Shown: positions 5,912 through 64,000 of the stretch, piece by piece
How the letters are laid out: each line of letters opens with the position of its first letter
How positions within the stretch are numbered: the first letter of the stretch is position 1
Origin: Asterochloris sp. CNOR1
Lineage: Eukaryota; Chlorophyta; Trebouxiophyceae; Trebouxiales; Trebouxiaceae
Reading direction: 5' to 3'
DNA length: 64,000 nucleotides
Assembly: GCA_963969365.1 (NCBI GenBank)
Contig: OZ017757.1
Coordinates: 1,054,001-1,118,000, forward strand
The notes under the pieces: model-generated
What the model was told of the DNA's origin: nothing
The model's database searches: none
What the model saw: the letters and a program-made list of their open reading frames with translations, nothing else
Position numbers and translations under genes: made by a program

Positions 5912-8900
5912 TTAGAGACCCTGAACCTCGATGGGCAGAGCAGAATTATCATCCAGTGAGCCCATGTTGGAATTTGTAGCTTTTGCGCCGTGCTGCACCT
6001 TCAGCACGAGTTCATTGGCCTGTGCTCCTCCAGGGGCAGACACAATTACTGTATCCTCCTCCCCACAGTCTCCACGCAGTAGGGACTTGGCCAGAGCAGT
6101 CTCCAGCTCGCGCTGCACCGCCCGCTTGACGGGACGCGCTCCGTACACAGGGTCGAAGCCTCTGGCCTGCAGGAACAAGCGGACCAGTGTCCGTCAGCAA
6201 CAGGCGGCTGCTGACCCCTTGAGGCTCATCTATCTGTCGCCTCGACTAAGGCCCAGCCTCTCTGACCACCAGAGGTCCACCGTGGCCACCAGAGCCCTCT
6301 CAAGGGACGCTCTGGGGCAGCAATCAGAGGTCATGACAGCAACATGGCGCCCACGACCCAGCCTGCCCGCACTTGTTGTGTGGTGTCGCTCACCGCAAGG
6401 AACTCCAGTCCAGAGTCCTCAAGCTCCAGGCGCATCTTCTTGGCAGCCAGGCGCTGCCGCACGCGCTCCACTTGCAGCAGCACAATGCGCTTGATGTCCT
6501 CACGCTGCAGGGCCTTGAAGACGATGAACTCGTCGATCCTGTTCAGGAACTCAGGCCGGAAGTGCGCCCGTACCTGCGCACACCCAAGGAGTTCATCGCT
6601 ACTGTTCAGGAACTTGGGCCGTATTTCGCCCTCCAGCATGCCCACTGCTCCTGGCAGGGCCAAGGCAGCACCTTTGCCCCCAACAGAGGTGCCAGGCAAA
6701 GCGTTCTAGTTGTGCGGCACATGCATCGTGCCAGGGTCCTGGCACACACACACAGCCAGGCAGGCAGGGCATGCTGCCCGCTCATAGCGCCCCCGCCTTG
6801 CACAGCAGCTCCTAGCCACAGCAGGCATGAGTGCCTGGGCCCCACTTGGGTCATGAGAGTTCCCCTAATGCCCTCCGGGATCTTACACATGCCGTTCAGG
6901 CAGGCCCGCGCTGCATACCCGCCCTGCCGCATGCAGTGATCGCTTCCCCTCAGCATGGTCCACTCACGCAGCAGCTGCCATGCATGGCAGCCCCACCTGC
7001 GTCATGACAGTCTCCCTGACGCCCTCAGGATTCTGGCGCATGCCCTCCAGGATGTACTGGCTGCCCATGTTGCTGGTCATGATGATGATGCTGTTTTTGA
7101 AGGACACCTGGCGCCCCTGGCTGTCGGTGACACGCCCATCATCCAGGATCTGGAGCAGGATGTTGAACACATCTGCGTGGGCTTTCTCCACCTCATCAAA
7201 CAGGATGACTGCGTAGGGGCGCCGCCTGCAGAGGGGTTGACAGGGAAATTGTGTGGCACAGCCTGACTGGAAGTGGCCAATGGACTGCAGGCCCTACTCT
7301 CCCCATCTTGGCAGAGGGCATGACTGTCAAAACAGGATGACTGCGCAAGGATGCTGCCTGCAGGGAGTCAGAGGTGTGTAGGGTGGGCATGCTGCCTTAT
7401 GCTGCTGAAGCACAAGCAAAAGAGCACTGCCTTGTTCAGGAGCATGGAGGGGAGGGGTCAGGGTGCACTGCCTTGTACAGCACAGCTGGGAGCGCGCTTT
7501 AGTGAGCCACCAGCTGACGTCTGTGTCACGCAGACAGAGGCACAGGTCCCAGGCAGGCAAGCTTCAGGAGCTGGTGTCAGCCTAAATACGGCTCACATCC
7601 TTTGAGCACCATGCTGGGCTTGATGCGGCTGTCGCTTGGGGGGTGAAGTGCTCAGGCAGCCGGGCAATGTACTCGGTCAGCCCAATGGGCCTGTGCAGAT
7701 GGATCAAGTTGAGCAGCCTTGACAGGCTTTGTGCAGTGAGTGCTGTGCCTGAACGCCCCTCACCTGATGGCCTCAGTGAGCTGGCCCCCCTCATCGTACC
7801 CCACGTAGCCTGGCGGGGCGCCGATGAGGCGGCTCACGCTGTGCTTCTCCATGTACTCACTCATGTCAATGCGCACCATGGCATCCTGCAGGAGCATGGG
7901 CAGAGGGGACTGCTGAGACAAGACACAGCTGTTACTTTGATGCACACTATGGGCATAGTCTGGCAGAGGGCAGCCTGCAGAGACACAGGCAGAGGGGACT
8001 GCCGAGCCAAGACACAGCTGACGCACATCATGGGCACATCCTGGCAGAGGGCAGTCTGCAGGGGCACGAGCAAAGTGGATGTGCACTTGACACGGGGGGG
8101 AGGGGGGCCAGCTTTGACAGTGTCAGCTTGGCAGAGAGAGCAGCGTGGCTGCAGACAACCAGAGCAAGTGCCAGCAGCTCAGCCTGTCCAAGGGGATGCC
8201 TGCCCCAAGCTGAGGCGCAGCGCAGCTGCATGCCACGTTGCCATCCGTCCTTGAGTGGCAAGTGCAGGCAGAGTCACTGCCCAGTTGCAGGCCTCACATC
8301 TGTGTTGAACAGATAGTTGGCCAGCGCCTTGCCCAGCTCCGTCTTGCCCACCCCCGTGGGCCCCAGAAACATGAAGGACGCGATGGGGCGCTGGGGATCT
8401 GACATGCCCGCGCGGGACCTGCAAAGAGGACGAGTGCTGAGCCATGCTTGGCCTGACCAGGCAGCCAAGGCTGTAGCAACCAAGCACAGCAGCAGAGTAC
8501 CATGCAATGCAGGACTCTCTCCCATCAGGCAGGCCCAGATGTCGTTCAGGTCCACTACCACGTATGCTCATCCCAAAAGTGACCCTGCCAGCTGGCCTGC
8601 AGCAGCCCCTGCACCCCTTGCACCCCCTGCTTGCTGCACTGGTTGCTGCATGACGCCGGCTGCTGCCGCCCCTGTGCGCTGCCCAGCCGGTCACTACTGC
8701 AAAGCACGCCTTGCAACAGCCCCCAATGCAGCGCCTAGCCTGTCATGACTATGCTTCAGCCTTGCGCCAGCCCCAAAGGCAGACCTGTGCTCCCAGCATT
8801 TGTTGGGGAACACCACAATCATGCATGTGACAGCGAGGACAAGACGTGCCTGTCAAGCGAGGCACTTTGACACCAGGATGGTGATTAAGGGGAGGCACAC

Positions 8901-11900
8901 CAGACTGCGGCCTGGCAGCCTCAGCTGAGCGCTCCCAGGTGGTGGAGGTTACCCTTAAACTGTTTGAGCGGTGGGCACTGCCTCCACAGAATCCTCCTGG
9001 TCAATAATCGACTGCCCCAAGTTGTGCTCAAACAGCAGCTCGGCCCCTTGCTGACCCCTGCCAGCCCAGCTGGGCAGCTGGGCAGCCCTGTGCTGCCTGC
9101 ACTCACCTCTGAATTGCGTCGGCCACGGCTTCCACAGCTTCATCCTGGTTGATGACGCGCCGCCGCAGCTCGTCCCCCAGGTTGAGCAGCTTCTCCCGCT
9201 CACTGGCCGCCAGGCGCGCCACCGGGATGCCTGTCCACTTGCTGATGATCTCGGCGACATCAGCCTCAGTCACCTCCTCTCGCAGCATGCGGTTTCCGTC
9301 CGTCTGCGGGAAGCAAAGCCCTGCTTAGTGTGCAGGCTTTGAAAACGCAGATACATGCTCACGGGTTGACTCTGCACCTCAGGGAGCAGGCAGGGCGCGG
9401 GTCAGGACCTGCCCCTCACAGAGCATGCGGTTGCAGCCGTCCTGAGTGCTGCACTGCACTCTGAAGCATGTCACACCAGTCATCTCCTCATTGCAGCATG
9501 CGGCTGCCCAACATCTGCAGCAGTCAGGAGCAGCCTATTGGCTGAACCTATCTCAGAGAACGGCACTGTCAAATAACCTGGCAGGCTCCTGAATTTCACT
9601 CAAGCCGACGCTTCGCAATATTGAAAGCTTTGTGAAGGCTACTGACCTCAGGACTCAGTGGTCTGTGGGCCACGACTTATCAATGTGTGTGCAGAGGGGC
9701 TATGTTCAAGCTGCAGTGCATGCCTGCAGCAGCTCAAGCTGGCTCCAGCAGATGAATACAACGAGTACCAGGGAGGCCTGGGCACAGCCTGAGCGCCGCC
9801 AAGCAACAGGTGGGGACATCTTGATGCATCAGGCTCCTTGACGCACCCAAACGTCCAGCATTCACAATGGCTGGGGGTCTCATGTGGGCTCAAGGCTCTT
9901 GTTTAGGCCTGCACCAACCTGATTGTCCAGCATCTCCTCGTTCCCCCCTCCCTGCTCCCCTCCCTCCTATGACTTCAGCAGGGTGCCGTGAGGCTGCCAC
10001 ACACAGTGCTGCAAGCCAGTGGGCCAGACATACAAGGCCAGACCGACAGACAGCACTCGCCTCCTTCTCCAGCATCTCCTCTGCCTCTTTCAGCTGTTTC
10101 TGCAGCTCCAGCAGGGTCCCATACTTGAGCTCGGCTGCCCTGTTGAGGTCATAGTCCCGCTCAGCTGACTGGATCTCCAGGTTGACTCGCTCAATCTCCT
10201 CCTTCAGCCGTGTCAGGCGCATCATGTCCTCCTTTTCTTGCTGCCACTGCTCCGTCAGCTCACGCTGCAGTCACCAGCAGACGCAGGACATGAGAGAGTG
10301 CAACTGGAGAGTGCGCACTGCAGCCTGGCAGACTGATGCACAGCCCCGCAGATCCAGCTGGGGGTCCAGCATGGCTGCAGGTGGCTTCGAGGGCCTGCCA
10401 GGCCAGCACATGTCAGAGACGCACCAGAGAGTGCCTGCATGCTTCTCCAGGATGCGGTACACCTGCTCAAGCTTCAGCAGGGCGAGATGAGCACCCTACA
10501 CCCTAGACACTGAACCCTTGCCTGTTCCTGCCCGGGCAGGCCCACTGTACACAGCAGGGAGGCATGCAGCATGGTGCCCATCGCATGGGCTGCGCACCTG
10601 CCATGGGCCCGACGCCTGTTCCTGCGCAAGCAGGATAGTTGCACACAGCAGGAAGGCCTCTAGCATGTTGTACAGGTGACCTCAGGGTGCAGGCTGCATA
10701 CCTGCTCGCGCTTGAGGAGATCAAGCTGCGCATCCAGGCTCTTGAGGCGCCCCTTGGCCGCGCGATCGCTCTCTGCGGCCTTGGCCAGGCTGAGACGCTC
10801 CATCTCCAGCTGCAGGATCTGCACGGCAGCCATGCGCAAGCAGGTCAGCAGGCCGTCTCAGCAGCAGCTCCTCCATCTGTTGCAGGGGAGGTGACGTAAC
10901 CCAGGGTCAGCTGTTGTGCCTCTCCTCATCCACATGCATCACAGTCCTGCACAGTCCTGGGCCTGCCCTGCCTTCTGCAGCAACAGCTGAGGTGACAGAT
11001 GGCATGCATGGACTGCATGCTCCCCCCGAAGGCAACACTGAGCTGCAGCAGCCACACAGAAAGCAGTACAAGCGCCTTGATCTTTGCTCATGCAGATTCT
11101 GTGGAGGCCCTGCCCCTTGCGCTACGCCTGCTTGATCCGGTGGAGCTTGACAATTCCTTACGCAGGTGCTGCATATGTACTGCAAGCTCACACAGCAGCT
11201 TGACCCACCTTGCGATCGATCTCATCCAAGTGCAGGGGCTTGGAGGTGATCTCCATCTTCAGCTTGGCAGCAGACTCATCGATCAGGTCAATGGCCTTGT
11301 CAGGGAGGAAGCGGTCCGCAATGTAGCGGTCAGACAAGATGGCCGCCTCAACAAGGGCGGAGTCGCTGATGCGCACGCCGTGGTGCACCTCGTACCTGCA
11401 TAAGACAGGGCAGTACATGCGCATGTGCAAGCTGCTGGCAAGATTCTTTGCACACCTGCCTGCGGGGTTGTGCAGGCTGCTGGCCAGAGCCTTACACTGC
11501 TGTGCCCCCAGAGCTGAGTCACTGATGCACAGAACGTGGTGTGGATATGAACATCATCAGACGCAGGTTGCGCAGGCTGCGCAGGCTGCTGGCTGGCACT
11601 ACATCCTGCTCATGCTGTGGCTGGAGTTGAAAGCACGGGCTCCTGCCGAGCGGGTGGAGAAGGCCAGTGCAGGCTTCACACTAGATCAGCTTGCGTCAGC
11701 ATGCCAAAGCAAGAATCTCTGCAATGACGCTGGGTTGCCACAAAACCATTTCTTTCAACCACCACAGCCCACCTTTCCCTGAGCCCTCTGAGGATGGCGA
11801 TGGTGTCGATGACGCTGGGCTGCCCCACATACACCTGCTGGAAGCGGCGCTCCAAGGCAGGGTCCTTCTCAATGTACTTTCTGTACTCGTCCAGGGTGGT

Positions 11901-14900
11901 GGCGCCGATGCAGCGCAGCTCGCCACGCCCAAGCATAGGCTTCAGCAGGTTGCCTACAGGGAGGGGCGAGAGGACTCAGTCCAGCTGCAGAGAGGGCTGC
12001 CCTCCGTTGCACACCGCTGCTGCCAAATGCACTTCTTAGGCAGGGGCAACGCCGACGCACGCACAGCAGCTTGCCACGGCCCAGCATTGGCTTCAGCAGT
12101 TGCCTGCTGCAGAGGGTCATTGCGTCTCACAGCTTCAGGTCCCACATGCATGGACTCACTAGCACCACCAGCCACCATCAGGAATGGCAGCTAGCACCAG
12201 CACCACACAAGCTGACCAGTGCTTGTGAGCCCCTAGGTCCACCAGGGTAAGCATCTCACCGAGAGCTGATGTTTTCACATCTCAAGTCTCCCATGTGCCT
12301 GGCCTCAGTAGCTGGCACCAGCAGCAGCCACCACCAGTGTGGGCAGTTGCCACCAGCACCACCCATGCTCACCAGCATCCATGGCTCCCTGGGTAGCGCC
12401 CGCGCCCACCACGGTGTGTATCTCATCAATGAACAGCACGATCTTGCCGTTGCTGTCGGTGACCTCCTTGATGACTGCCTTGAGGCGGTCCTCGAACTCG
12501 CCCCGATACTTGGCGCCGGCAATGAGGGCCCCCATGTCCAGAGACATCAGGGTGCGGTCCTGTAGGCAGGAGTCTGCTCACTCAATTGGGCACATGTCCT
12601 GGGAGTCATATGTGCTGCCTGCGCTGTGACTCTGCTGGTGGCATGTCTCTGCAGCCTCTCAGAACAACAGCAACCATAGTTGGGCTGCAGGCAGCAGCAC
12701 ATGCTTCGCAGCATGCGATGAGGGCCTCTGCATCAGGAGCATTAGGACACAATTCTGTAGACGAACAAGCGGGAAACTCTGTACGATGTCAGACGGCTTT
12801 AGAGCTGCAAACATCAGCAATGGACATCAGCGTGCTGGCAGAGCAACGGGGGACCTTGTGCCAGGCAGCATTCCATGCTCTGTGCCGGTGGTGATGGCCC
12901 CAACATGTAATCCTGTTGCCTGGGGTAAAGGGTCACCAAGCAGTGATTGGGCAGCAGCCAGGACCTGGTATGGGGCCCGAATGCAGCGCCGTGATGTCTT
13001 CAAGACGTCCACGCTCAGGTCAACCCAAGATGCATGACTTTTAGCGTCTGTGCAAGAGTGGCTGGGAACCTCCCCTGCAAGCACTCTGTCTGCACTGCAG
13101 TCTGGATAGCACCCCTGGCACCAGCCTGACCCTTTGCTGAACCTGGGAGGCTGCCATCATGTGACAGGCCCCCAGCTAACCAGTAGCCTCTAGCTGGGCT
13201 TCCTGCAGTGCTTAGGGAACATTCCCCACAATGGTGCGCTAAGTTGTCCACCAACCACAATCACCCCGCCTGATCTAGCATGCTTTGCTCAATTTATCTG
13301 AAGCGCCTCACAAATGCTGTCCCGATCTGCTCGACCTGGCATGACAGCAGACTTGAGCTGCAACTGACCTGCAGTGCCGAAGGGACGTCCCCCACAACAA
13401 TGCGCTGCGCCAGCCCCTCAGCCACGGCCGTCTTGCCCACGCCAGGCTCGCCAATGAGCACAGGGTTGTTCTTGGTGCGCCGCGACAGGATTTGGATGGC
13501 ACGCCGGATCTCATCGTCGCGCCCAATGACAGGGTCCAGCTTGCCGTCGCGGGCAGCAGCTGTCAGGTCGCGCGCATATTTGGTCAGGGCTTCATATTTG
13601 CCCTCAGGGTCCTGCACAGGGCGGCATGCGGCTACTGAGCTGGGAGGTCAGGGCTGCATGGGCGCCTCTGGCGGCAGCTGCCCCGCTGGAGGCCACAGGT
13701 TCGAAGGATGCTTCAGTTGCCTGCTGCTGTTGAGTGGGCCTTAGGCAGACCATCTGCCATGGTTTTGGGTGATGGCAGCAGCGGCAGGAACAAAGTGACA
13801 ACCAGGTGTTCACCCACAAAAGTCAGCTTAGTGCTCAGCAGCCTCATGGCAGCCAATGCGCCTGGCTGGTGCACGTACACCACGCAAGCCAGCAACTGAC
13901 CCCTGCCGCTGCGCCATGCCTCCCTGGCTGGCACAGGCCTTGCAGGCGCAGATCCCGCAAGAAGCGACTTGGTTGGGCACCCTTTCTCTTGGTGACATAG
14001 ACCTTCCTGATTGAATCAGGGCCGCATGCTGCCAGAACCCCCAAGGACTGCCCTCAGTGGTGACCCTGTTGCTGACCAGGTACACAACAGATGTCCTTGA
14101 TAACCTCTACGCCATAAGCATACCACATCATCTGGCAGGCGCCGGCCCTGGGGGGGATTTCTTCCAAAAGTAACACGCTTAATGACCCTGTCACTGTTCA
14201 TCCCCAGACCAGGCGCTTCCAGGCCTGCTGCTGCCACCTATCACCCAGAACAGCCCCAGCACTGACCTGGTCGGTGACCCTGTTGCTGCCCCGGACCTCC
14301 TTGATGACCTTCTCCAGGCTGCGCGCGTCCAGGCCCTCATCGCGCAGCAGCTGCTGCCCAAAGTGCTGGTCATCCAGCATGGCCAGCAGCAGGTGCTCCA
14401 CGGAGGTGAACTCGTCCTTCCACTCCTTCTGCAGCTCCTGGGCGCGCGTCACGAGGGCCTCCAGGTTGCGCCCCAGCATCTGCAGCACCGTTAGGCTGTT
14501 TGGCATCCTCAGCGGTTGCTATCCTGTATGGGGTGGCCAATGCTGCATGGGCCTCCAGACAGGCATTGAACAGCTGAGAGCAGGTGCCCCACCTGGTTGG
14601 CGTCCCCTGAGACCTTGGGCTGCCTGCGGATGTACTGGTCCACCTTCTCCAGCAGCTGAGAGGGGTTGGCCCCCGCTTTGGCCAGGATGCGCCGCGCCAG
14701 GCCGTTGGGCTGCTCCAGCAGGGCCTTCAAGAGGTGCTCCGTCTCCACGATCTGCACAACAGGTAGCCACAGCAATTGAGAGGGCAGGGTGTGGACCACA
14801 AAACATGAAGTCATGGGCAAGCAGGGCGCTACGACCACACATGACCAGCTTCTGCACAAGTAGCAGATGGTGCAGCCCCGCCTGAGGGGCAGTGGCTGGG

Positions 14901-18605: not shown

Positions 18606-20037
18606 ATGGCAACCAAAGTTGACGTTTTACGGTGGTCCAGACCTGTCACAGTGGAAATAATCAACGAGCGGAGAGGCCGGGAGAGCAGCCAGTACCAGGT
18701 TCTAAACTTGCTGCTGCTATCTGACAGTCAGCTCGGTAACCTACCCTACTTCTCAGACAAAGCCAGCATGAAAGGTGCAGAAGATGAGCAAGATGAGGAG
18801 CACAACTTCATGCTGGGCTTCACTGAGCCACCCAAGTCTGCTTATCACCTGCTCAGACACCAATTCAGGAGCAAAGTTGGGGGCAGGCCAGCCTGGCTGA
18901 ATCCCGCAGCCCTACCCACACGTCATCAGCTCACCTGTGGGCCAACCCAGCAGCCTCTGGACTTCTTGCTGCAAATATACGCGCCACCACCAGAAGAGCT
19001 GCAGCACGCCTTCCACAGGGCTATATTTGTCTTCACCTCCCCAGCAGGTCTGCAACTCACTAAGGCGGGTGCGGTCAAGGCGTTCAGGTGTCAGCTGCCC
19101 AGGGAAAACCCCTTCTACAGTGCCAAGCCGCCAAAAGATAGCGACCAGCTGCCCCCTCCAGTCGACCTGGAGCTGCCCGCTGTTCAGCAAGACAGGTGAG
19201 GCCTGAGGTGTGCTTGTGTGCATGCACACTGTCCAGCTGTAGGCAGCCGCACTGGACAAAGCATGAGTGCTTTGCCTGTGTTGAAGTCCTATTCACCGGA
19301 GCATGGCTGCAGTCCTCCCCCAAATAACTGAGGCACACGTGGCCGAGTGTTGCAACAGAGCAGGCCCTCACAGCCCCACCTTAGCCAGTTGTACACACAA
19401 GTTTTTGGATCTGTGCTTCAGGAGGCAGTTGACCGCTCCTGCTCTGACCTGCAGATGGCAGAGTGCTGCAGCAGAGCAGGCGCTCCCCAAAACAGTTGCC
19501 ATGCTGGAGGTGCCCCTGTATAAGGAGCTAGAGCTGATTGTGGATGCCGAGCCCTGGGGCACTGACAGCGAGGATGATGCGCACACCCAGCAGCTCATGT
19601 CAGAGTATCAAGCCCGTCTGGCTTCAGAGGGGCCCTTGGATGCAGAAGCGCTGCCCCCTGAGGTGCTGGACGCCATTGAAGACAGCCACAGCCAGGAGAG
19701 CCAGCAGTTTGCTGAATTTGCTGCTCGACTGGCATCCGCTCCAGAACAGGTCCTCAGATACTGCTCTGAGGATGGAGCCCAGCCTCTGTGGCCCAGCCTG
19801 GCCTATGTCCCAGAGCCTGACAGCATCCCTGCTTGCCCCCTGTGTGGGGCGGCGCGGCGTTTTGAGTTTCAAATTCTGCCTCAGCTGCTGCACTTCATGC
19901 AAGTAGATGCTAGCTCCCCAGACTCCATAGACTTTGGCAGCATAGCTGTGTTCACCTGCTCAAACAGCTGCAACATTACAACCCCTGCAGCCCCATCTGC
20001 TTACGCCGAGGAGTATGTTTGGGTGCAGCCTTCCTGA
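18606..20037 (+). CDS. PDCD2: PDCD2-family ribosome biogenesis protein
   Basis: PDCD2 proteins act as chaperones for the small-subunit protein uS5 (RPS2) in 40S ribosome assembly. Exon 1 carries MLGFTEPPKSAYHLL, the N-terminal signature KVGGRPAWLNP, LTCGPTQQPLDFLLQIYAP and FHRAIFVFTSP. It also has CQLPRENPFYS, and ends at a CAG|GTGAGG donor near 19196. Exon 2 starts after CTGCAG at 19454 in phase (QQD-RWQSAA). It ends with the PDCD2_C domain: EPWGTDSEDD, then ACPLCGAARRFEFQILPQLL, and EEYVWVQPS just before the stop. The ATG at 18606 keeps an open frame, but the family normally starts close to the LGF motif, so the ATG at 18768 is also likely. The cysteines of the central MYND-type zinc finger seem absent. 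The 3' end is convergent with the RING gene. Confidence 0.87.
19344..19504. repeat. Decayed acceptor-side exon copy in PDCD2
   Basis: The start of PDCD2 exon 2 (19460-19504) is preceded 116 bp upstream by a copy at 19344-19388. Both share GAGTGYTGCARCAGAGCAGG and a following C-rich stretch. Confidence 0.65.
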
Positions 20038-23082: not shown

Positions 23083-23160
23083 CAATTTGTATTCACAGGT
23101 TGTTCCTTACACTTTCTTTCTGTAGCCTCCTAGGTGGCAGCTGGCAGTCCGAAGTGGCAT

Positions 23161-24794: not shown

Positions 24795-24873
24795 CCTCAC
24801 TCATGACGCTTCAGATTATCTGTATTTTTGACATCCCCTGACATGTTTGACTTCGAGTAGTTTGTGCAGGTCA

Positions 24874-30800: not shown

Positions 30801-31373
30801 AGCTCGGTACTGAGTCACGAGCAGAAGAGTCTGCTCATCGTTCTCCTTTCTGGTGGCATGCTGTCGCTGGAGGCGGTTCACTCGGTCGTGGACTGCAGCC
30901 TGCTTGGCTGCGTGCTGCTGGTGCAGGGCCTTGCGGAAACGCTGCTGTGCGTGCAGCTCCAGCTGCTGCTCCCGGGTCTGCTTGTGCAACAGCTGGTGCT
31001 TCTGGCGCTCCCGCGCAGCGGCAGCGCTGCGGTGGCTGGCGGCCAGGGCATTAAGTGCTGCCTGCTGCTGTGCAGAGACCTCCCCAATCTCCTGCTGCAG
31101 CGATGTCTGCCAGGCATCCTTCAGCTCCTCCTGTGCCTGCGGGAGCATTGCTGCTGTGTCAGTGGCCTGCCATGTGCTCAATGGCTCACTGCGGCCATGC
31201 CGCACCACGCAAGCCTCAGACTGCAAGGATGCCTTGTAGCGCCTTGCCCTCTCTGCGGCCTGCTCCTTTTCCTGCTGGCGCACTTGCAGTAGGCGTTGTC
31301 TCCTGCTATGCTCTCGCTGCTTGGCCTGGAGGGCTTGTACCTCTTCAGGGGATAGGGGATAGGACCCGTACAT
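24874..31373 (-). CDS. CEP295-like centriole protein with coiled coils and disordered regions
   Basis: The first exons (31373 to about 30060) encode charged coiled coil. It starts YPLSPEEVQALQAKQREHSR, then RQRLLQVRQQEKEQAAERA, and later AQEELKDAWQTSLQQEIGEV and HDRVNRLQRQHATRKEND. The LSP-E start followed by an RRxxLLQVRxQEK helix recalls the N-terminus of CEP295/Ana1, which recruits pericentriolar material and stabilises new centrioles. A middle region (29117-27760) is low complexity, rich in Ser, Ala, Gln and Pro. Later exons carry GRLADLVKQLQQVRQ and a Ser-rich stretch. The apparent stop at 25108 is followed by a clean GTGAGC donor. Splicing to the acceptor near 25045 adds, in phase, HLLDWSMTSIESGVASASSL and ends RSWSFE at 24874. 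Family assignment rests on the N-terminus only; a generic coiled-coil protein is the alternative. Confidence 0.5.
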
Positions 31374-31571
31374 GGCCTGCAGGGGCTCACCGCATGACTG
31401 GTCAAACCTGTGAATTAGTCAAACTATGTGGAGGTGAATTCATGCTCGTGCAAATCTGATCCGAATGTTTATAGGCCATCTGCTGATCTCAGATGGTCCT
31501 CAGCAGCAAATGAAAAGCAACTAGACAACATGATGAAAGGGGCCAAGTATTCAGGTGTCTTGTGACATAAA

Positions 31572-35988
<4,417 letters not shown>

Positions 35989-52900: not shown

Positions 52901-55900
52901 GACAAGGCACCTAGCAAGCTTCAGCATGTCAGCTGCTTCAGTGCAGAGACATCGTGAATGTGAGCTGCCCTGCAGTACACTGTGCCCCCTGTGGTGGCGG
53001 ATCTGTTGATGTTCTCCCTGCCTTAGCCAGAACCCATTGACAGGGGCATCTGTGCCCACACAACGCCATGCTGCAGCGGAGTCCTCCCTTCATTGAATAC
53101 CGAGTGTAGTCCGCCATCCTGAGCAGATCTGAATCTGTTGTGCTGTTTGTTGTACTGCAGCCTCAGGCCTTGAATGAGATTTCAAAGGCCACGCCACTGC
53201 TGCGGGGGCTTGCTTCTGAGGGTTCCTGCCGGTGCCAACAGGACTCTGAGGACATTCTGACTTTGTCTGCCTGTGCTGCAGCCCAAGCCCATCAATGAGG
53301 AGTCCCTGCGCCCACGTAATGCCAAGCTGCAGCGAGTGCAGCACTGCTTGACTTCCCAGCTCGGCAAGATGCCTCGCGGCTACGTTAGCCACACGCGCAA
53401 GGAGGCAGCCATGCTGGAATACATTGCCAAGTGGGCTGCAGCCTTTTCCCAGCTGTACCCTCAGCGCCGGCCCCTCTTCATTACCCCCAAGAATGAGTGC
53501 GGCCAGCCTAAAGTGGTCTGCACCAGCGTGCGCCCCACAGTGCTGCCCTACCCCGAGTTGTACACGCTGCCAGGGCTGGCGCGCTGTGTAGCAGACTACT
53601 TTGCCTATGAGCCGCTGGAAAAGCCTGTCCACATGCCAGAGTACCTGGTGTCCCCAACTTCGGCCATCAACTGGCAGGTGGGCCTTCACAGAGCCGCCAT
53701 GCAATACAGGATCTGCTTTTGCCCAGACGGACCATGCATCATCTTGTGAGTTTTGAAAGCAAGCTGGTGTTCCCACTGGAAGGTGGTGTATCACACACCT
53801 GCTGTGCAGCAACTGGGTGCCAGACCCGCATGTGCTATCTGCAAGAGACCTGTCCACCTGCCAGATCACCAGATGTGGACGCCATCTGCCGTAAAGTCCC
53901 ACACGAAACAAGGTGCACCTGGTGTCAGGTGGCCTTGGTGTCCCCTCAGATAGCAATCGCCTCAAGGAGGCAGCACTGAGGCGTGTCATGCATCAGAGTT
54001 TGCCAGTCAAAACCGGTCTGCCCCAACTCACCCATCAGTGAATCAGTCTGTCAGGCCACATACACACACACACGCACTAAGAGCATCAGGCAGCACCAGC
54101 AAGAGTTCATAAGCTTTTTCTAGTGTCCTAGTGTGCCTGCGCTGTGGTAGGACCGACAGAACAGTCATCCCCACACAGACAAGCAGCCTTGACTTGGGCT
54201 GCCCTGGACTGCAGGCTGGCGACAGCTTTGACCTGTCCACAGTGCTGTGCTCCCTGCTCATTGGGGCTGGGTTCGATGCCTATGTGGTGGCTGGGTATGC
54301 ACCCCAGGCCATCACCTTCAACGACCAGGCTGCCACACAGTGCCCAGCTCTGGAGCAGGAGGCCCCAGTGCAGCCCCCTGCCTCCCCCAAGAGGAAGGTG
54401 GAACGCCTTAAGAGCACCAAATCGCAAGGGGAGCCCAAGTACAGCATCAAGAGTGGGGCCAAGTTGGAGAGCAAGTTCTTGCAGGTGAGCCTGTGGGCTG
54501 ATCTGGAGATGTTGTTGTGTCTGCATGGAGGACACTTGAACAAACTCCAAAGGTCTTTGATGCAACGGCTGCTTGAGCATTTGTTGGTGCTAGCTGCTGT
54601 TCTGCGCCTGTTTAGCAGCAGCGCAACTGCCACAGAATCTGCATGCCACCCGTTCCATTGCTGGGACTGGGCCAGCAGTGAAGTAAGCGCTACCTTGCAG
54701 GACCAGAAGGCTGCAAGACAGCAGCAGCAGCAGCCTGCAGCTGCAGGCGCTTCTGCAGAGGCAAACAGCACGCCCCGCACCGATACAGGAGCAGCAGCCC
54801 CAGCTGCTGCTGCTCCTGCACCTCGCGGCGCCAACAACAAGTTGGTGCACGCCTGGGTGCTGGTCATGGCTGGCAGGCGGCAGGTGAGAGTATGCAGCTC
54901 CAAGTGCTGCCGACGGCAGCTTAGTGTTCAGGTGCTGGGTCTTAAGATTCACCTAATGCATGTGCTGCCTCTGAATCTTGAGACTGCTGTGCTGATGGCT
55001 GAGCTGACTGCCTTGCTGACTTGCCTGACTCAAGGCAATATGCTGGTTTTGGATGTCCTTGTTACAGCCATTGCAGCCTGTGCGGTCTGCTGCACTTACT
55101 GTGATTGCTCCTGTGTCTGCGTCCATTGCGCTCAGCAGACCTTCCTGCAAGGCAGGGTCTAGATGCTGGCTTGGCATGCCTCCCTGCGTGCCTGTGCCAT
55201 GGGAGGCACACACACAAGCAGCCTGTTCTGACGCCTGCATCTGTGAAACACCTGCAGGTGTCAGAGGCATTGTACATTGAGCCCAGCACAGGGCGCCAGT
55301 ATGCCGTAAAGCAGAGCCCCTACGAGGGCGTAGAGTTCATGTGGAACGATCAGAACTTCTGGGTGTGCATGCAAATGCCAGAGCCGCACTCTGACAGCAG
55401 GGCCAGCGCCGCTGCGCTGTCCCTTGACCTGCGCAACTCCTGCAAGTGGGAGTCGCTCCTGTACGAGTCCCTGCCCAAGGTGGGCCACTGGGCTTGGCAC
55501 GAGCGCAGGGGATGACATGCAAGATGCTCTGCAGATGCTGGTCACTGCTGCATGAACTCTAATCAGGACTGCTCTGGTTGAGCTGTAGACCAGCCTTGCA
55601 CCATGTCAACCGTGCTACTCACAGCATTGCCATGGACTCTTGATGCCTTAGGCTGAGCTGAGCCATCGAGGGGCAGCAGGCTGCCCTGATGGCAACCAAG
55701 CCAGCCCGTGCCGTGTTCACAAGCAGAGACCATCCTCAATTGGTGTGCAGGACTACAATGCAGTCATGAGCACAACGTTTGGCTCTCAGTTGCTTTGCTG
55801 CACTAGGTAGCTGGAATAGCAGTTCAATGAACAGCTGGCAGTGTGCAGGGCTTAGAGGATGATGGCCAGGAGCAAGTGGGGATGGAGGCAGGAGGCAGGC

Positions 55901-58900
55901 TGCTCTCCCAGGCCTTCTCGCGTGCAAATTTTGTGCCAGGGACCAGGCCAGGGGGCAGCCTTGCAGCCCGCACGCCGCGGGGAGGGAAGCCAGGTATGCC
56001 TGAGCGTAGCACTACCTGCAGCCTGCATGTTGCTTGCTGTCCACAGAAGTCTTGAACATACACAGCATCAGCTTCTGCTTTGTGCATGCAGCCTGCATGT
56101 CCTCGGCCGTCTGAGGCAGCATGCAGCACAAGCCTGTGTCTGCAGCATGCACGTGGAGTGCCTGTGCCTCTGGGCCCTGTGTGAGCTGCACGGCCTGCAA
56201 GTATGTATGGCTGCCCCAACCCTGTGCTGAATGGGGTGCTTGCAAGTTGCTGTCTAAGGACAGTGGCGCTGCAGGTGTGCCAGTGCTCCAGCAAGGCACC
56301 GTCGCTGCTGCTGCCATGGCGGTGGCCGGCACCGAGCACAGCAGCTCCGTCACTAGCGAGAGCCGGCGTGCCAGCGAGGCTGGCAGCAAGGCGGGGGACA
56401 GGCCCAGCGACACGCAGAGGGATAGGCAGCCAGGGACAGGCAAGGATAGGGACGCAGACGGCTCTGATGCAGCGCCAGAGTCTACAGGTCAGGGACCGTT
56501 TTCAGGTTTCTGTGTGCATGAGGGCGAACTCGCAGAGGATGCCTAAGAACAGGCATATAGCTGCACAAGGCGCACCATAAACATACCATAGCTATCAGCA
56601 GTCTCAGCAGATTGTGCCGCCATTGCTGACAATCCGCCACCCTCACTGCCATATGTCCCCACACTTAACAGACCTTGTGTCACAAAGCTTGAACCTGTCA
56701 TCACCAGAACTGCATGCCCCAATAGCTGCCTGTTGGGGGGCTCAATGCTCCAAGCTATCGAGCTGGTCACTTCAGCTTGCTCAGAAGGGCCACCACTTGG
56801 CCTGTAGGGCTGCTGGGCATGCCTCTCAGCTGGGTGAACAAGCTGCTCTCTCCAGCAGGCTTGTCCCCACCCCTGTCTTGTCGTATCTTGCAGGGCTGCC
56901 AGACATGCCACCCAGCTGGGTGAACAAGCTGGTCATCCCGCGCGATTGCCTGGACATGCGTTGCCCCAAGGGTGTGAAGAGCACGCTATACCACCGCTGC
57001 CAGCACGAAATATTTGCCCTCTTCGGAGAATGTGCGCGCTGGGATGGCATGGTGGAGCGCATCACCCTGTACGAGGTTAGGCAGTGCTTGACTCCGTCGA
57101 TGTCAGCTCTCAACATGCAAGGGCATGCTCTGGTCCTCTGTCAGGCTGTGCATGCTGGTTTGCATGGAGGTAACACCACTGCCAAGCCAATGAAGTGGTG
57201 TTCAGGGTATTGTGAGAGTAGGTATCTTTAAGCTGACCAGCACCTACGCCTGCTTTCATGTTCTCAGATCCTGCTGCACAGCAAGCACTTGTGTGGCAGC
57301 AGAATACATGCATTTGCAGCCTGTTCCTGATCTTGTGACACTGCATGTGCCGATGACTTTAAGCCTCCCACTCAGGTACTGACATGAAAGCTAGCTGTTC
57401 CTCAAGCTGCCTAGATTGTTTGAGAACACAACAGCATTGGCATCCGTGCGACAACTCCCTCACCGAAGTCCCCAACAGCACTGCTGCACTGCCCAAAGCA
57501 CCCTGAAGGACAATGCGTGCCCTATGCCCCTGAATGTTCCCAACAGCACTATCGTACTGCGCTGAGCCACTTGCAGGACGACACGTGCACTGTTTACGTC
57601 ACTGCCTGCGACATCAACTGCTGCCGGTGCGATAAGCAAGCTTTGTGGCTGTTCTCAGAGCTGACTTTGCGGTGACCTGCGGGATGACTTGCACAATGTG
57701 CCCATCCAGACCTCTGCCAGCACTGCCCACATTCAATGTGCCACTTCCAAGCTGCACCGTGATGTTTTGCAGACAATGCGCACACCCTGCCCACAGAGGT
57801 GTGCATGTTCGCCCGCTGGTGCCACAACTAGCCGGGGGAGCAAGCTGCACTCTATTGCAGGGCTCCCTGCTGGAGTCTTCTTGGCCTCACTGGTTATGGC
57901 GTCCCTGCAGGACGATGGATGCACCATGCCAGCTTAAGTGCACGAGATCAACCATTTGCGCCGCAACACGCAAGCTGCGCTGCCGTTGCCTGGTCTGTAG
58001 AATGAGTTGTGTGCTGTGCCCCAGCAAATGTCTGCCAGCACTGCCTGCACTAAGTCTGCCTCCCCCTTGAGCTGCATCCTGACATTTTGCAGGACGATGC
58101 GCGCACCGTGCCCACCGAGGTGCGGGAGATCAACCGCCGGCGCAGGGATAAGCTGGTGGAGCGGCGGGTGTTTCCCCAGAGGGAAACCAGCATGGAGAGC
58201 TTCCACCAAGGGGCTTGCGGGGGCCTGCGCAACATCACCGTTGTCAAGGGCGAGCAGCGCAAAATGGACTTCTTCCCAGCCGCCCGCCTGGATGGGCTTG
58301 TGCAGGTCAGCTGACCACCCAGTGGGGCAGGTGCTGACTGCCAAGCAGGCTGAAGCTGGGCACGGCATTCTCCAGACACCTGTATGCAGAGGTGCAGTAC
58401 GAGAGCTCTCCCGTTTCGGAAGCCAGCCTGTGCAACATCCTCTTGAGTCCAACCTGCATATGGCTCAAGAAGCATCTGCTTGCTGGTGCAACAATTGGCG
58501 AAAGATTGGGGAATGCCTGGTGGATGTGCTCCAGAACACAGGCAAGAGAGTACACTGTCTGCTGTGATGCAGCGAGTAGAGAAGATTGGGGAGAAGATGA
58601 CTGAGGTCTTCCTGGGCAGGGATGACCACCTTGTCTACCGCTCCATCAGATACGGGGATCTGCCCGCTGCGACGCCAGAGGGCGATGGCAGGTGTGGGTC
58701 GTTGACAGACGCCTCCAGCTCATATTGCCATTGTTTACAGAGAGAGACCTGCTGGCTGCAACGCCAAAGGGCAATGCCGGGCAGACATTGTTTGTAGGCG
58801 TGGTGAAATTCGTACTGACATCTTCCTTTACAGGGAGCCGCAACACCTGAGGCTGATGCCAGATGGTTGCTGTTCATTGACATTCTGAGCTTGAGCTTGA

Positions 58901-61585
58901 CTCGGTGACATGCAGGATCTGCCAGGTGCAACACCTGGGGCTGATGCCTGGTCTGCATGCCCATGTCCAGCACCCCTGCGGCCATCAGCTTGAGGGCCAG
59001 CAATGATGGCCCATATGAATGGCAAACACATCCCCATGCTGGCAGCTACCTTACGGTCAGCGCTGTTGGTGCCTCAGCAGCTGAAGTGTGTGCCATGTTC
59101 ACGGATGCCGTGCAGCCATGCTTGAGCAAGCCTGCAGCTGCTTGCCTGCAGGCACAGTGCCTCTTCAACCGCCAAACTTGCACTTGCCACACACGGCACT
59201 GTGTGCCTGAGCAAACCTGCCAAATCAGCAGATTGCTGCCTCAGCAGACCTGCATGCAGGAGGGGCGCCCCCGCCCTGGTGACAAGGCAGCCTTCCTCAA
59301 AGAAGAAGGCCGATGAGCTTACGCGCCCCATTGTGAAGATGACCGAAAAGTTCTCCCGCCGCTCAGAGCTCCCAGCCCACCTGGACGTGGCCAAGCGCGT
59401 GTTCTACAGCGCGCAGGGCCAGATCAGGCTGGACTACCACTATGCAGGTGGATGCAGCAGGCCTGGTGCATGGCAGTGCTGGTGGTCAATGACGGAAGCT
59501 ACCCATTATCACCGACAGGTGGACGTAGCTCCAAACCATGGAGTTGCTGTGGGGCAAAGAGGACAAGCCAGGCCCTTCTGCATCTGTCCCATCAGTGATG
59601 GATGGGAACCATGCCAGTCTTCACAAAGCAGCCCCCTGTCCACAGGAGCAAGATGCCAACGTCTGCTGTGCAGGGGACAGGATCAGCCATGACAGCCGCC
59701 TGTTCACGCGGGAGGGTCTGTCCCAGCTGGTGCAGGTGGAGCCCCTGGCGCCAATACCCCCGGCAGGGGCCCTCATGGAAGACTACCAGTGCCAGCTGGA
59801 GGCTGAGGGGGCTTGCTTGCAGGTCAGTCAACAGGAATGATGCTGCCCACCTGCCTGGGTTTCCCTCCCTCTACCTGCAGGCTGCCATTATCGAGGAGGA
59901 GCTGCTGGTTGCCCAAAGCCTTGGTGCTGCAATGCCATGAGCCCTCCACCATCTGTCCTGTAAAGGATGCATTGCGACCTCTGAGCGGCTCAGTCAAACT
60001 ACTGGAGACTGCCTGCAACAAGCACTCCATGCAATGGAAGGCAAGGGACTCAGCTCACTGTGTGTACCCGCAGGCTGCCCGCGACAGTGAGAAGGAGGTG
60101 CGTGAGCTGCTGGCGGCCCGGGAGAGGGAGGAGCGCTCAATCAGCCTGGTGACCCCTTACTATGACGCAGTCAGGGAAAAGCACGGCGAGAGTGATGAGG
60201 AGCCTGAGGAGGCTGTCAACACTCAGGCCAACTACCTGACGCCGTTCATGCCGCCGCTGGTTGGTGCGCGGCAGCTGACCAGAGCAGAGGCGCTGGAGGT
60301 CCGGGAGAAGTGCCTCAAGGTGTGTTGAGGGCTACTGGGCCGCTTTTGGTCACACCAAGATCTGGGCTGGTGACATCAGTGACTGCAGTAGTGCTGACAA
60401 GTGGAGAGAGGTTTTTGAGCACGGGCGCCCATCACTGAGAGACAGGTGGGCGGGAATGACAGAGGTCTGGGAAGAACAGCCTTGCGATGTGTTGGTAAGC
60501 TTCATATTGCTGTGTGGCTTCAGGGGCAGCTGCCCAGGGCACAGGTGCTAGAAGGCCAGGGTAAGTGCCTCAGGGTTACTGGGCCCTGCTGGGCATTTGG
60601 GCGCCTCCTTGGGAGGTGCCTAGATAGAGCAGGAGATGCCTGTTCTGGAGAGCTGCCTGCTGACATGCTGGAAGCTGCCATGAGCCTGCTGCACTTGGTC
60701 AATGATGAGAATTGAGGTGGCAGCTGAGGGCTGGAGGGCGTTTGCAACACTGGCTGTAGCAGGGCTTGCAAAGGCCGCCCCTGCTGATAGCTTCTGTGCA
60801 CTCAACCGGTTGCTCCTCCGCAAGCGCTGCCAGTAGTGCAGCAGTGCTGCACGCTGTGGTCAGGAAGCCACAGAACAAAGAACTGGCTGTGTCTCACACC
60901 TGCTGCAGGCACTGAAGGATCGCCTGGTGGAGCGCGCCAACATCATCCAGGCCCGGCATGATGAGGAGACAACGTCCCTTGCTAAGCGGCAGGTTGGCCA
61001 TGGGCTGTCAGCTTGGTGGCTGTGGCTGCTCAGAAGTTCGCAGCCCAGAGCGATGCTGCTAGCAGGGCTAGCAGGGGTCCAATGGACTTTGTGCAGCTTT
61101 AAGAGGACTTGTGCAGCTCAGAGCGCTGACGGCGCTTCAGGTCCACTGGGAGCGCTCCCTGACGGCCTGCACTGAGGATGCACTTTGGGGCTGCACCCTT
61201 CATGTGCACATGTGCAGTAGTGGCCTGTGGAGGTGCCTTTGCTGAGGGGCTGCACTGATGCTGCTCTCGTGTTAACTGCGGCCATTGTCACAATGCCACC
61301 AGAACCAGATCAAGCCCCTCAGCCGTCCCTAGGCAGCCCCTGTGGGTGCTGTCCAGCTCTTACACGTGCACTGCCTGGCAGGCCACCTTCCAGCGCGACC
61401 GGGACCAGATGACTCGCGAAGAGGAGGAGGAGTATGAGCACGCCTGCGAGGAGTGCCTGTTCCGCATACACATCCTGGACAAGAGGCTCAAGCGCCACGA
61501 GGAGCAGGCCCTGCAGAAGTACTTTGAGCTGGACAACAAGATTAGGCATGACCCACGCCTGTCAGCTCTGCTGCAGGCTGATTGA
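46950..61585 (+). CDS. DRC7: Nexin-dynein regulatory complex subunit 7 with N-terminal LRR and Kelch domains
   Basis: DRC7 (FAP50, CCDC135/lobo) belongs to the nexin-dynein regulatory complex linking axonemal doublets. My model has about 25 exons and 1,530 residues, with phases matching at nearly every join. Exons 46950-48797 give leucine-rich repeats (e.g. LQVLQLENNRIDALPDNMGN). A linker (49333-49421, AGTYIEYRCKAEAAQVTRLE) joins in phase to Kelch repeats from 49859 (MLFVFGGLVTK, KLVIFGG, LILFGG, LFVQGG, LYLYGG). From 52286 the sequence is canonical DRC7: LYPQRRPLFITPKNECGQPK, the transglutaminase-like core GDSFDLSTVLCSLLIGAGFD, HAWVLVMAGRRQ and YIEPSTGRQY, a polyQ/Ala linker, DMPPSWVNKLVIPRDCLDMR, EINRRRRDKLVERRVF, VKMTEKFSRRSELP and DVAKRVFYSAQGQIRLDYHY. 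The C-terminal coiled coil includes DRLVERANIIQARHDEET and FRIHILDKRLKRHEEQA. The catalytic Cys is Ser (54224). An exon-like piece at 59881-59924 is probably a decayed copy. Confidence 0.9.
48206..48353. repeat. Decayed donor-side LRR exon copy in DRC7
   Basis: The end of the LRR exon at 48206-48246 (SMGHLKTIKELDLR) is copied 103 bp later at 48309-48353, inside the intron. The copy still reads MGRLKTIRELIS on the same strand but lacks a usable donor. Confidence 0.8.
49761..49970. repeat. Decayed acceptor-side Kelch exon copy in DRC7
   Basis: The true Kelch exon region 49878-49970 is preceded by an imperfect copy at 49761-49858, about 118 bp upstream. Shared blocks include CATGCTGTTTGTG, TTGGTG and CGGTCACCA / TGGTCACCA, and the end of the copy (TTTTTCATGAAG) supplies the working acceptor of the true exon. 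Confidence 0.75.
50608..50615 (+). promoter_or_regulatory. TATA-like element inside a DRC7 intron
   Basis: TATAAATA sits 24 bases before the acceptor of the Kelch exon that starts at 50632. It could be chance in an intron, or an internal promoter for a shorter transcript. There is no other support. Confidence 0.2.
54058..54078. repeat. CA microsatellite in a DRC7 intron
   Basis: A short run of alternating C and A (ACATACACACACACACGCAC) lies in the intron before the transglutaminase-like exon. Confidence 0.7.
56802..56938. repeat. Decayed acceptor-side exon copy in DRC7
   Basis: The exon start at 56888-56938 (acceptor TTGCAG, then LPDMPPSWVNKLVIP) is preceded by a copy at 56802-56853, offset 86-87 bp. 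The copy includes CTGTAGGGCTGC at the junction and an unbroken CAGCTGGGTGAACAAGCTG block identical to the exon. Confidence 0.8.
57503..58113. repeat. Six-copy array of a splice-acceptor segment in DRC7
   Basis: The true acceptor and exon start (58087-58113, exon from 58093) has five degenerate upstream relatives, at 57503-57528, 57571-57592, 57677-57703, 57767-57792 and 57905-57930. Each aligns to the core TTGCAGGACGATGCGCGCAC. The copy at 57767 belongs to a longer match of more than 100 bp that includes CTGCCAGCACTGCC upstream of it. Confidence 0.75.
59881..60119. repeat. Exon-like acceptor copy in DRC7
   Basis: CAGGCTGCCATTATCGAGGA (59878 on) resembles the true exon start CAGGCTGCCCGCGACAGTG (60071 on), and both continue to GAGCTGCTGG. 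Using the first piece as an exon breaks the reading frame in my model, while skipping it keeps phase and fits animal DRC7. Confidence 0.55.
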
Positions 61586-61839: not shown

Positions 61840-64000
61840 ATGAGAAAGCCGAAAAGCAAGAAGAAAAGCAAGGTCTGAATTTCATCTGTGTTGAAGGGCT
61901 GCCATCCCAGGGAGATGTCACAATTGCACCTCCCCAGTGTTTGTGCAGGTGACTGCACATGCTGATGAGGCTCCATCTGGCCCAGATGCGGCGACTGCTC
62001 AGCAGGCGAAGCCTATGGTGAGTTGCTCTTCTGTGACGGGTAGCAACCAGCCTGTTGCCTGACGCATCAAGCACTTGCAGGTGTGGCGGCCAGATGCAGA
62101 TGACCAGGCAGAGGAGGATATGATGGACTATGACCCCACTGCCTATGACTGCCTCCACCGCTTTGCCCTGGAGTGGCCCTGCCTCAGGTGAGGCGCCTTG
62201 CAGCACCTTGTTGCTCCCCATCAGGACGCTCTGCCAGGCTGAAGGACACGCAATGCACACTGCCTTCGTGCGCTGGATACTGCTTTTCTGCGCTGAATGT
62301 GGTGTGCTTGCATGCCTCTGGGCCCTTGCAGGGCTGCCTTTGACGCCATTGATGCATCTGCTCAACAGCAGCAGGGGCTGCTTCCTTCTGGCTGCAGTCA
62401 GGCATCAACACAGTGACTCTGGTCATCATGCTGCCTCCTCCTCCAGTAGCCTTGGCCACTTCCACTGACAGGGCCCTCTTTGCTGCTGCAGTCTAGACAT
62501 TCTGCGCGACGAGCTGGGCGGGCCCCGCAATGACTTTCCCCACAGCCTTTACATGGTGGCTGGGACCCAGGCTGCCTCAGCCAAGCGCAACTACCTGGCC
62601 CTTGTCAAGCTGTCAGACATCAAGCAGGGGCGCCACGGCGCAAAAGCTGGCGCAGCGGATGACTCTGACGATGATCTGCTGAGCGAGAGCGATGAGGAGG
62701 TCGAGGATCCCCCGCAGATGCACCTGCGCATGCAGGTAACTATTACTGTTACTGACAGCAGCCAGCAGGATTTGTGCAGCTCAAATCCCCTCCCCACACG
62801 TGCAACGGTAGGCGCTGGTTTGCACGCTGCATGCAAGAGCTACTGAGGGCAGCAGCACTGTCAGTACGGCTGGCTGCCTTGACTTGCCAGGCAGGTGCTG
62901 ACCAGCCACCACTGTGCATGCAAGTGCCCTCCAAAGCCGCTGAGGGCAATAACGGTTTCAAGGCAGGAACACACTCTCAGACTGGACCTCTTTGGCATGT
63001 GCTGATGGTGCACCACTGCGCATGCAGGCCCTCCCCTACGCGGTCAACCGTGTGCGCAGCATGCCTCAGAGGCCGGGCGTGACGGCCCTGTGGGGGGAGG
63101 ATGGGCAAGTGCAGGTGAGCAGCATGCTGCAGCCTGGCTGCAGATTGCGTGCGCTCCGGGGCTGAGCGAGTCTAGGTCAGCCCTCTTAGGGGAGCGCAGC
63201 TGAAATGTTTGCTGCATCCCTCGCTCTGCGTCTCAGACATGTCATTGCCTGTGCCAAGGCTGCCTGCGCCACCTATCCTGCGCTGACTGCCAGGCTGTGT
63301 ACCTGTCTGACCGTTTTGCAGTGGCATCTGCTGCCAAGGAGCTCGAAAAATGTGCAGCAAAGCCATGCCCTGCAAAAATTGCCTGAATTCGTCTGAGGCC
63401 TTGCCCTCCTGCTACCTGCAGGTGTTTGACCTCACCTCCGCTGCTGAGGAACTCCAGAGCAGAGGCAGCAAGCCCAGCAAGAACCAGACACTGCAGCTGG
63501 CACCCCTGCAAGCCCACAGGCATGCCACAGAGGGGTATGCCCTCGACTGGTCCCCGCAGGCAGCGGGGCAGCTGGCCACTGGGGACTGCAGGCGGCATCT
63601 GCACGTGTGGAGCCCCACATCTGCTGGCAGCTGGGAGGTCAGCGCGCCCTACAAGGGGCACACGCAGTCGGTCGAGGACTTGCAGTGGAGCCCCACGGAG
63701 CCCAATGTGAGTTGCCTGCCTTGCCGGCAGAACCTGCCATCGTCTCAAAGCATGCCTTGTTCTTGATGCAGTGCTCAGGGGGCACGTGCACTCAATTGAG
63801 CAACTGCAGTGGACTTCCAGGAAGCCCAGCGTGAGTGGCTCGTCTGGCATCGGCACTCTGTCCTCAACAGGCTCTGCAGCGAGCGTTCATGCCTGCTGAC
63901 GGCTGGGAGGTCAGCAGAGCACATGCACTGTGGTGGTCATGCAGTGGTGCCCCACAGAACCCAGTGTGTTTTGCTCACAGTCTGGGTGGTAGAGCCTGGC
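61840..64000 (+). CDS. GRWD1: GRWD1/RRB1 WD40 ribosome-assembly protein, 5' part
   Basis: GRWD1 (yeast Rrb1) is a nuclear WD40 chaperone that escorts ribosomal protein L3 into pre-60S particles. The short first exon (MRKPKSKKKSK) gives a basic nuclear-type start, joined in phase to VTAHADEAPSGPDAA and VWRPDADDQAEEDMMDYDPT. YDCLHRFALEWPCLSLDILR spans the next intron, then LYMVAGTQAASAKRNYLALV, an acidic stretch (DDSDDDLLSESDEEVED), NRVRSMPQRPGVTALW, VFDLTSAAEEL, EGYALDWSPQAAGQLATGDC and GHTQSVEDLQWSPTEPN at 63711. These are the N-terminal region and the first WD repeats in the usual order. The remaining repeats lie beyond the window. The intron after 63711 contains two copies of the preceding exon end. 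Confidence 0.9.
63674..63970. repeat. Exon end with two downstream copies in GRWD1
   Basis: The exon end 63674-63712 (EDLQWSPTEPN plus the GTGAGT donor) is repeated at 63798-63836 and 63933-63970, offsets about 124 and 135 bp. Each copy keeps TGCAGTGG, a CCCA-G-GAAC/CCC block and a GTGAGT or GTGTGT end. Sequence similarity also extends upstream of each. Confidence 0.75.

Follow-up and report, generated by a model that had tools for sequence, protein, structure and literature searches.

The DNA considered here is a 64-kb window (the whole stretch that was analyzed, C12:1054001-1118000) from the green alga Asterochloris sp. CNOR1, and the features in question are imperfect copies of exon edges that lie within the introns adjoining those same exons. 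The genome comprises 56.38 Mb in 21 contigs with a GC content of ~0.58; excerpts of published accounts describe an Asterochloris lichen alga of 56 Mb, with 56–62% GC over 98% of the genome and nine introns per gene (PMC6652019), an A. mediterranea genome of 57 Mb on 18 chromosomes (PMC12542154), and Trebouxia contigs retained at 48–50% GC (PMC12712428). A Pfam search covering 20 exons of the window placed glycosyltransferase family 92 (175–1056), leucine-rich repeats (LRR, 47957–48244) and the DRC7 Kelch domain (49860–50063) above the cut-off, with AAA (13369–13611), HAD (5262–5399), CEP76-like, DRC7-MORN and WD-repeat matches below it. A ClpB gene is identified on the strength of its sequence. 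The names PDCD2, RHF, HAUS5 and GRWD1 are labels taken over from an earlier reading of this DNA (hereafter the original prediction); those exons of the PDCD2, RHF and HAUS5 genes that were searched gave no Pfam match, and the gene after PDCD2 is taken to be the RHF ligase from the order of that reading's list alone.

The window was analyzed together with ten 20-kb blocks (L003–L022) from contigs C1–C10, giving a sample of 264 kb to which all counts below refer unless the window is named; L001 and L002 lie outside this sample. Gene models were produced by our own two-strand hidden Markov model (HMM), trained on the window and the ten blocks, which returned 477 introns in 44 genes with the splice consensus CTGCAG/G at acceptors and CAG/GTGAGC at donors (the slash marking the junction). 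The acceptor is very strict (T, G and C preceding the AG each exceed 90%) and its polypyrimidine tract weak; TGCA is 4.1-fold over-represented in the window, an excess to which the strict acceptor may contribute. Some gene models are fused or erroneous: that at 20220–36136 merges several genes (to judge by sequence features, presumably with a kinase among them), and that at 46950–61585 may be an LRR gene fused with DRC7. After exclusion of 147 of the 477 introns for weak or short flanking exons, 330 were kept (both flanks scoring and at least 36 bp), of which the 321 that are 60–900 bp long form the tested set, the other 9 lying outside this range. Each query took the 60 bp of an exon that border the intron (its last 60 at a donor, its first 60 at an acceptor) and was aligned to that intron as well as to 100 length-matched sequences drawn from other introns; an edge was counted as having a copy when its own intron scored above all 100 controls, an outcome expected 3.2 times per side. 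Dinucleotide shuffles of the same intron served as a second control.

Exon edges proved to be copied into their own introns far more often than these controls allow. The own intron outscored all other-intron draws for 36 edges on the donor side and 31 on the acceptor side, out of 321 each, as the original prediction of both donor-side and acceptor-side copies had it. Dinucleotide shuffles were beaten by 32 donor and 31 acceptor edges out of 321 each, such that the predicted copies outlast this control also, and 57 edges beat both. Within the window, 12/84 donor and 13/84 acceptor edges pass the other-intron control, 21 of these 25 passing both. Inverted queries gave no excess (2/321 donor, 0/321 acceptor), nor did exon interiors taken 90–150 bp from the edge (0/166 and 1/181). 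When the test is restricted to 110 high-confidence introns the signal persists, with 18 donor and 13 acceptor copies against 1.1 expected. At least one edge copy is present in 64 of the 321 introns (~6 expected by chance) and in 26 of the 42 genes that contributed introns to the test, and none of the 11 blocks is without them (6–41% of introns per block). A second copy in the same intron accompanies 5 of 63 edges where 0.6 would be expected (4 of the 67 copies were skipped here as too short). Ungapped self-similarity of the window rises above a Markov-5 simulation almost exclusively at lags of ~40–350 bp, with isolated runs farther out. Exon-edge copies in introns are thus confirmed as real and are found throughout the sample.

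The window supplies the individual cases, each of which beats both controls unless stated otherwise. The first of them lie in the ClpB gene (minus strand). Its intron 6574–6996 contains a copy of 55 exon bases and 25 intron bases from a donor-side exon end (6819..6900; original 6972–7051, lag 151, 72% identity), readable as diverged protein; this case was aligned by hand, without control, and stands outside the automatic count, the HMM having called the copy an exon. Acceptor-side exon starts are copied at 6593..6631 (original 6530–6569, lag 63, 78%; here the upstream intron boundary of the model is wrong) and at 9477..9518 (original 9267–9307, lag 211, 79%). The copy at 7330..7363 includes the acceptor CTGCAG with 28 bp of exon (original 7198–7231, lag 132, 85%), and that at 12050..12138 spans an acceptor junction with 51 bp of exon and 37 bp of intron (original 11903–11990, lag 149, 73%). 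On the donor side, an exon end recurs at 8968..9056 (original 9116–9208, lag 148, 62%) and junctions recur at 13181..13240 (original 13345–13406, lag 166, 69%) and 14032..14080 (original 14245–14294, lag 214, 78%).

The pattern repeats in the genes that follow. PDCD2 holds an acceptor-side exon start at 19340..19369 on the plus strand (original 19456–19485, lag 116, 87%), and the putative RHF ligase, on the minus strand, holds two donor-side exon ends, at 20897..20932 (original 21093–21127, lag 195, 81%) and, with TCAG/GTGA retained, at 21416..21501 (original 21554–21649, lag 138, 65%). Two acceptor-side exon starts are copied in the plus-strand gene 36207–38735 (36993..37030, original 37253–37296, lag 263, 75%; 38041..38065, original 38183–38207, lag 142, 88%). 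Minus-strand cases are an acceptor-side junction in the HAUS5-like gene (39173..39226, original 39092–39146, lag 81, 73%) and a donor-side exon end with 9 bp of intron in the gene 45730–46824 (46152..46204, original 46245–46298, lag 93, 80%). On the plus strand, the LRR region contains an acceptor-side junction (47707..47736, original 47951–47981, lag 245, 81%, with a z of only 3.7) and a 42-base exon end (48307..48348, original 48204–48245, lag 103, 88%), the intron of the latter holding a second, weaker copy at lag 162. In DRC7, also on the plus strand, ~110 bp of an acceptor-side exon start in the Kelch region abut their original in tandem (49744..49856, original 49862–49968, lag 119, 68%). 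Donor-side exon ends are copied in this gene at 53839..53895 (original 53615–53670, lag 225, 70%) and 58746..58781 (original 58657–58692, lag 89, 78%; one member of a three-copy family with spacings of 89 and 170), an acceptor-side junction at 56803..56863 (original 56889–56948, lag 86, 79%) and a donor-side junction, with 50 bp of exon and 21 bp of intron, at 60525..60594 (original 60270–60340, lag 255, 75%). At 41666–41875 an 89-bp unit is repeated within an intron as a decayed tandem array (2.4 copies, 74% match). The original prediction had named six genes: ClpB, PDCD2, the putative RHF ligase, the HAUS5-like gene and DRC7 bear it out, and GRWD1 is not confirmed, none of its 8 tested edges (4 of the 6 introns of the model) beating the controls (best p 0.03 and 0.05). 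Its claim that both strands are affected holds for edges passing the controls, which occur on either strand and also in two genes that it had left unnamed.

The copies are short-range, imperfect and largely broken as coding sequence. The lag between original and copy has a median of 124 bp (quartiles 90–178), 60 of 67 copies falling at 60–260 bp, and is nearly flat modulo 3 (20/26/21). A frameshift is present in 39/67 copies and an in-frame stop in 16/67, either of the two in 40/67, leaving 27/67 with an open frame. Mismatches by codon position run.176/.206/.195 in the 27 intact copies and.206/.211/.312 in the 40 broken ones; the intact copies, having no third-position excess, are without sign of coding constraint, and the third-position excess of the broken copies is read as silent change in the exon. 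The alignment approaches to within 12 bp of the junction in 56/67 copies. Adjoining intron past the splice motif is copied in 14 of these 56 (mean z 1.99), or in 21 of 56 if the motif itself is counted. Where the splice dinucleotides lie inside the alignment they are retained in 13/21 donors and 13/17 acceptors, and if extrapolation of the junction over as much as 12 bp is allowed the figures are 13/30 donors and 13/26 acceptors; these dinucleotide counts give no firm conclusion as to selection against splice sites in copies. Abutment, with a tolerance of 15 bp, is seen for 8 of the 67 copies, and 4 overlap their original as multi-copy arrays.

Nothing in the sample points to a dispersed family. 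Among 113,526 intron pairs of the sample only 3 are similar, all three of them neighbouring introns, which agrees with the original proposal of local duplication in place of transposon insertion, and just 2 of the 67 copies match elsewhere in the sample, over 24–28 bp. No dispersed family was found in the 264 kb, a sparse family in the remaining genome still being possible. The similar neighbours are i31/i32 and i112/i113 of the window and i145/i146 of block L003L004, and their similarity suggests duplications that covered a whole exon. Introner elements, by comparison, are dispersed families of similar introns; they resemble the present case as a genome-wide process shaping algal introns and differ from it in just this respect of similarity between introns.

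We then considered the age of the copies, using the 47 whose z exceeds 4 and whose alignment covers 30 bp or more. Their identities peak at 75–80% (3 at.65–.70, 12 at.70–.75, 19 at.75–.80, 9 at.80–.85, 3 at.85–.90, 1 at.90–.95 and none higher), in keeping with the decay described in the original prediction. Its suggestion that the process is ongoing is not supported: only 1/47 copies is at least 90% identical, as against ~28% in a constant-rate simulation. Without the length limit the figure is 6/62 at.90 or above against 29% simulated, and from 45 bp upward it is 1/21. Tandem Repeats Finder, which is independent of the gene models, reported 17 arrays with a period of at least 30 bp (2 in shuffled sequence). 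A period of 60 bp or more together with a match of 85% or better was reached by just two of them, the one lying entirely within an exon and the other crossing a donor junction. The youngest large junction-spanning case is a 158-bp unit in 2.5 copies at a donor junction (L021L022 13400–13791, 85% match); a 75-bp in-frame unit forms an exonic array of 1.9 copies at L007L008 4940–5078 (87% match). The scarcity of young copies cannot come from selection alone, because at constant input older survivors cannot exceed younger ones. Repeat-induced mutation was rejected as the reason for the missing young copies, the changes showing no C-to-T bias (the values for the first two codon positions, read from exon to copy, are.136 for A to G,.116 for G to A,.088 for C to T and.069 for T to C). 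The simplest reading would be a fall over time in the rate of duplication or of its fixation.

Are exon edges special as a source? In 178 introns of 240–900 bp, hits numbered 30 and 25 for exon edges, as against 10 and 7 for intron-edge segments, the latter themselves above the 1.8 expected by chance (at z >4 the counts are 31 and 23 for exon edges, 9 and 6 for intron-edge segments). Duplication was simulated on the donor side with uniform units of 60–250 bp, ages being given in substitutions per site. Generic duplication at a constant rate predicts an edge-to-intron ratio of 1.05–1.2 and fails; constant-rate duplication is thus rejected by this ratio as well as by the identity spectrum. The ratio comes to 2.3 for a burst at 0.4 and to 2.9 for ages of 0.25–1.2, both models being close to the observed identities. 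The exon-edge excess would accordingly be mostly a matter of visibility, because a constrained exon keeps one copy fresh and two intron copies diverge faster, such that in these models most of it is explained without any targeting of edges. A special mechanism for exon edges is not required, although some edge preference is possible.

Copies are also linked with intron length, as had been proposed when intron lengthening was first suggested for this DNA. The share of introns with a copy is 4–14% below 400 bp and 37–56% at 400–900 bp; median length is 443 bp with a copy and 236 bp without (p 1.9e-10), and among introns of at least 240 bp the medians are 497 and 347 bp (p 2.6e-6). Combined with detection rates from simulation, the two age models that fit best put the number of duplications at ~0.5–1.7 for each intron of 240 bp or more. 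Intron lengths are bimodal, with one mode at ~60–90 bp, a trough at 140–180 bp and a sharp second mode at ~200–240 bp; no shared intron family in the 264-kb sample accounts for this, and the pre-duplication lengths (length minus lag), inspected by eye, showed no shared mode.

What has to be accounted for, then, is a local, same-orientation excess confined to exon edges, longer introns, an intron flank that is copied in part, and few young copies. We favour an old phase of local tandem duplication that lengthened introns and of which the edge copies are the remains, a reading to which we assign a probability of about 0.7. Small local tandem duplications, with units of ~60–260 bp, would have arisen across all non-coding DNA, some of them falling across exon–intron junctions. 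Where a unit spanned a splice junction, splicing could keep to the outer, original pair of sites; the protein would be unaltered, the intron would gain one unit of length, and the inner copy would be left to decay free of constraint. Exon edges would stand out because one copy of each pair lies in a conserved exon and is thereby preserved. Most duplications probably date from the old phase, and their fixation may have been neutral or nearly so. The molecular cause could be break repair or replication slippage, the decayed breakpoints being unreadable; excerpts of Schimmel et al. (2021, PMC8355091) describe break-repair routes to small tandem duplications, which could have furnished short tandem units of this sort but were studied as new mutations at induced breaks, the algal copies being old and decayed.

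Several observations weigh against this old phase of tandem duplication. Exon edges exceed intron-edge segments 3.0–3.8 fold, somewhat above the 2.3 and 2.9 of the two best-fitting age models; a burst at 0.5 reaches 4.6 with a poor fit to the identities, and bursts at 0.2–0.3 (ratios 0.8–1.25) fail. The remaining excess may be sampling (there are 17 intron hits) or a genuine edge preference. Tandem simulation at the indel rate measured on the alignments predicts a copied intron flank in.46–.56 of cases, more than the.25 observed; higher indel rates bring this to.20–.32, but they were tried after the mismatch was known and are weak evidence, the edge ratio moreover coming from the original rates. 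In 55/67 copies the alignment falls short of the lag by more than 15 bp, although decay can likewise produce such a shortfall. The well-preserved copy at 48307–48348 ends at the exon–intron junction, and over all copies the third codon position mismatches more than the others (.196/.209/.276). Finally, the association of copies with intron length is partly one of opportunity, a short intron having no room for a distant copy.

A past phase of junction-focused duplication (through transcription- or splicing-coupled breaks, for example) that lengthened introns in this algal lineage and has since ended or slowed is an alternative that we hold to be possible though rather unlikely. A doubtful one is that exon edges are the preferred target of a splicing- or transcription-linked process that copies exon ends into the intron, which would make their excess mechanistic and more than an effect of visibility. 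The ratio for exon edges, somewhat above what the fitted generic models yield, and the existence of at least one well-preserved copy ending at the junction would fit it; old age alone yields most of the excess, however, intron-edge segments are likewise copied above chance, and some copies continue into the intron. Exon-only copying as the sole process is rejected, its simulated flank being.01.

Repair-mediated local capture, in which synthesis-dependent strand annealing inserted nearby copies with no need for abutment, seems unlikely. It would suit copies that are local and align over less than their lag, and parts of a vertebrate study by Pace et al. (2009, PMC2671141) describe such duplications, including donors with exon and splice site, with a median of 147 bp for proximal ones and an intensity decreasing over time. 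The likeness lies in short local copies, some from partial exon/intron donors. As presented in those parts, though, such donors make up 4/824, tandem duplications were kept out by discarding pairs no more than 50 bp apart, and distances extend to kilobases with a peak near 1,200 bp (perhaps an artefact, according to its authors), whereas the algal copies mostly lie at 60–260 bp and similarity in the window is scarce past ~400 bp. The absence of an inverted excess and the copies that abut their originals also argue against capture.

Intron gain through tandem duplication of an exonic AGGT segment is most improbable as the explanation of the copies. Hellsten 2011 and Gao & Lynch 2009 stand in the reference list of a review on intron gain by tandem genomic duplication (PMC3443670). 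Tandem duplication is an established source of new introns according to passages of PMC3443670; the process outlined there is alike in that a within-gene duplication supplies splice sites and leaves exon-homologous sequence in the intron, and unlike in that the new intron arises between duplicated AGGT sites, where here existing introns are lengthened by a unit spanning the junction. A lag equal to intron length, the signature of such gain, occurs in 9/410 introns against 2.0 expected, but only 2/67 copies have a lag within 3 bp of intron length. The best case of intron birth is an 89-bp intron on the minus strand (L005L006 8412–8500), whose two ends resemble the exons on either side at a lag that is the intron's own length, although its downstream exon scores weakly; window 6924–6996, among the top-ranked cases, was rejected as a gene-model artefact. 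Intron gain by duplication, raised in the original prediction beside intron growth, is a minor component at best.

The other alternatives can be set aside briefly. Functional alternative or mutually exclusive exons, for which the open frames and retained splice dinucleotides might speak, are highly improbable given the nearly flat lag modulo 3, and coding function of the copies is rejected by their broken frames and absent coding constraint. Chance or low-complexity TGCA-rich sequence, which the TGCA excess and the CTGCAG acceptors might favour, is for the bulk of the copies refuted by the other-intron, dinucleotide-shuffle and inverted controls, only ~6 of the 67 edges being expected by chance, and we give it hardly any credence.

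Intron lengthening without transposons is hard to document, in our judgement because intron sequence decays fast, and a search of titles and opening lines of abstracts, in which subscription journals were thinly covered, showed among the papers listed none on exon-edge fossils that record it. Duplications across splice junctions can be counted by number, age and size, since one of the two copies, lying in a conserved exon, stays readable, and about one intron in five (64/321) holds such a record. Were a junction-focused phase the true account, the copies would form a fossil record open to dating, every exon serving as the conserved standard against which to read the growth of its own intron. 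Under the favoured old phase of tandem duplication, the number of events implied per intron of at least 240 bp would make up a sizeable part of intron length, and the shortage of young copies points to a change over time in the pace of this growth.

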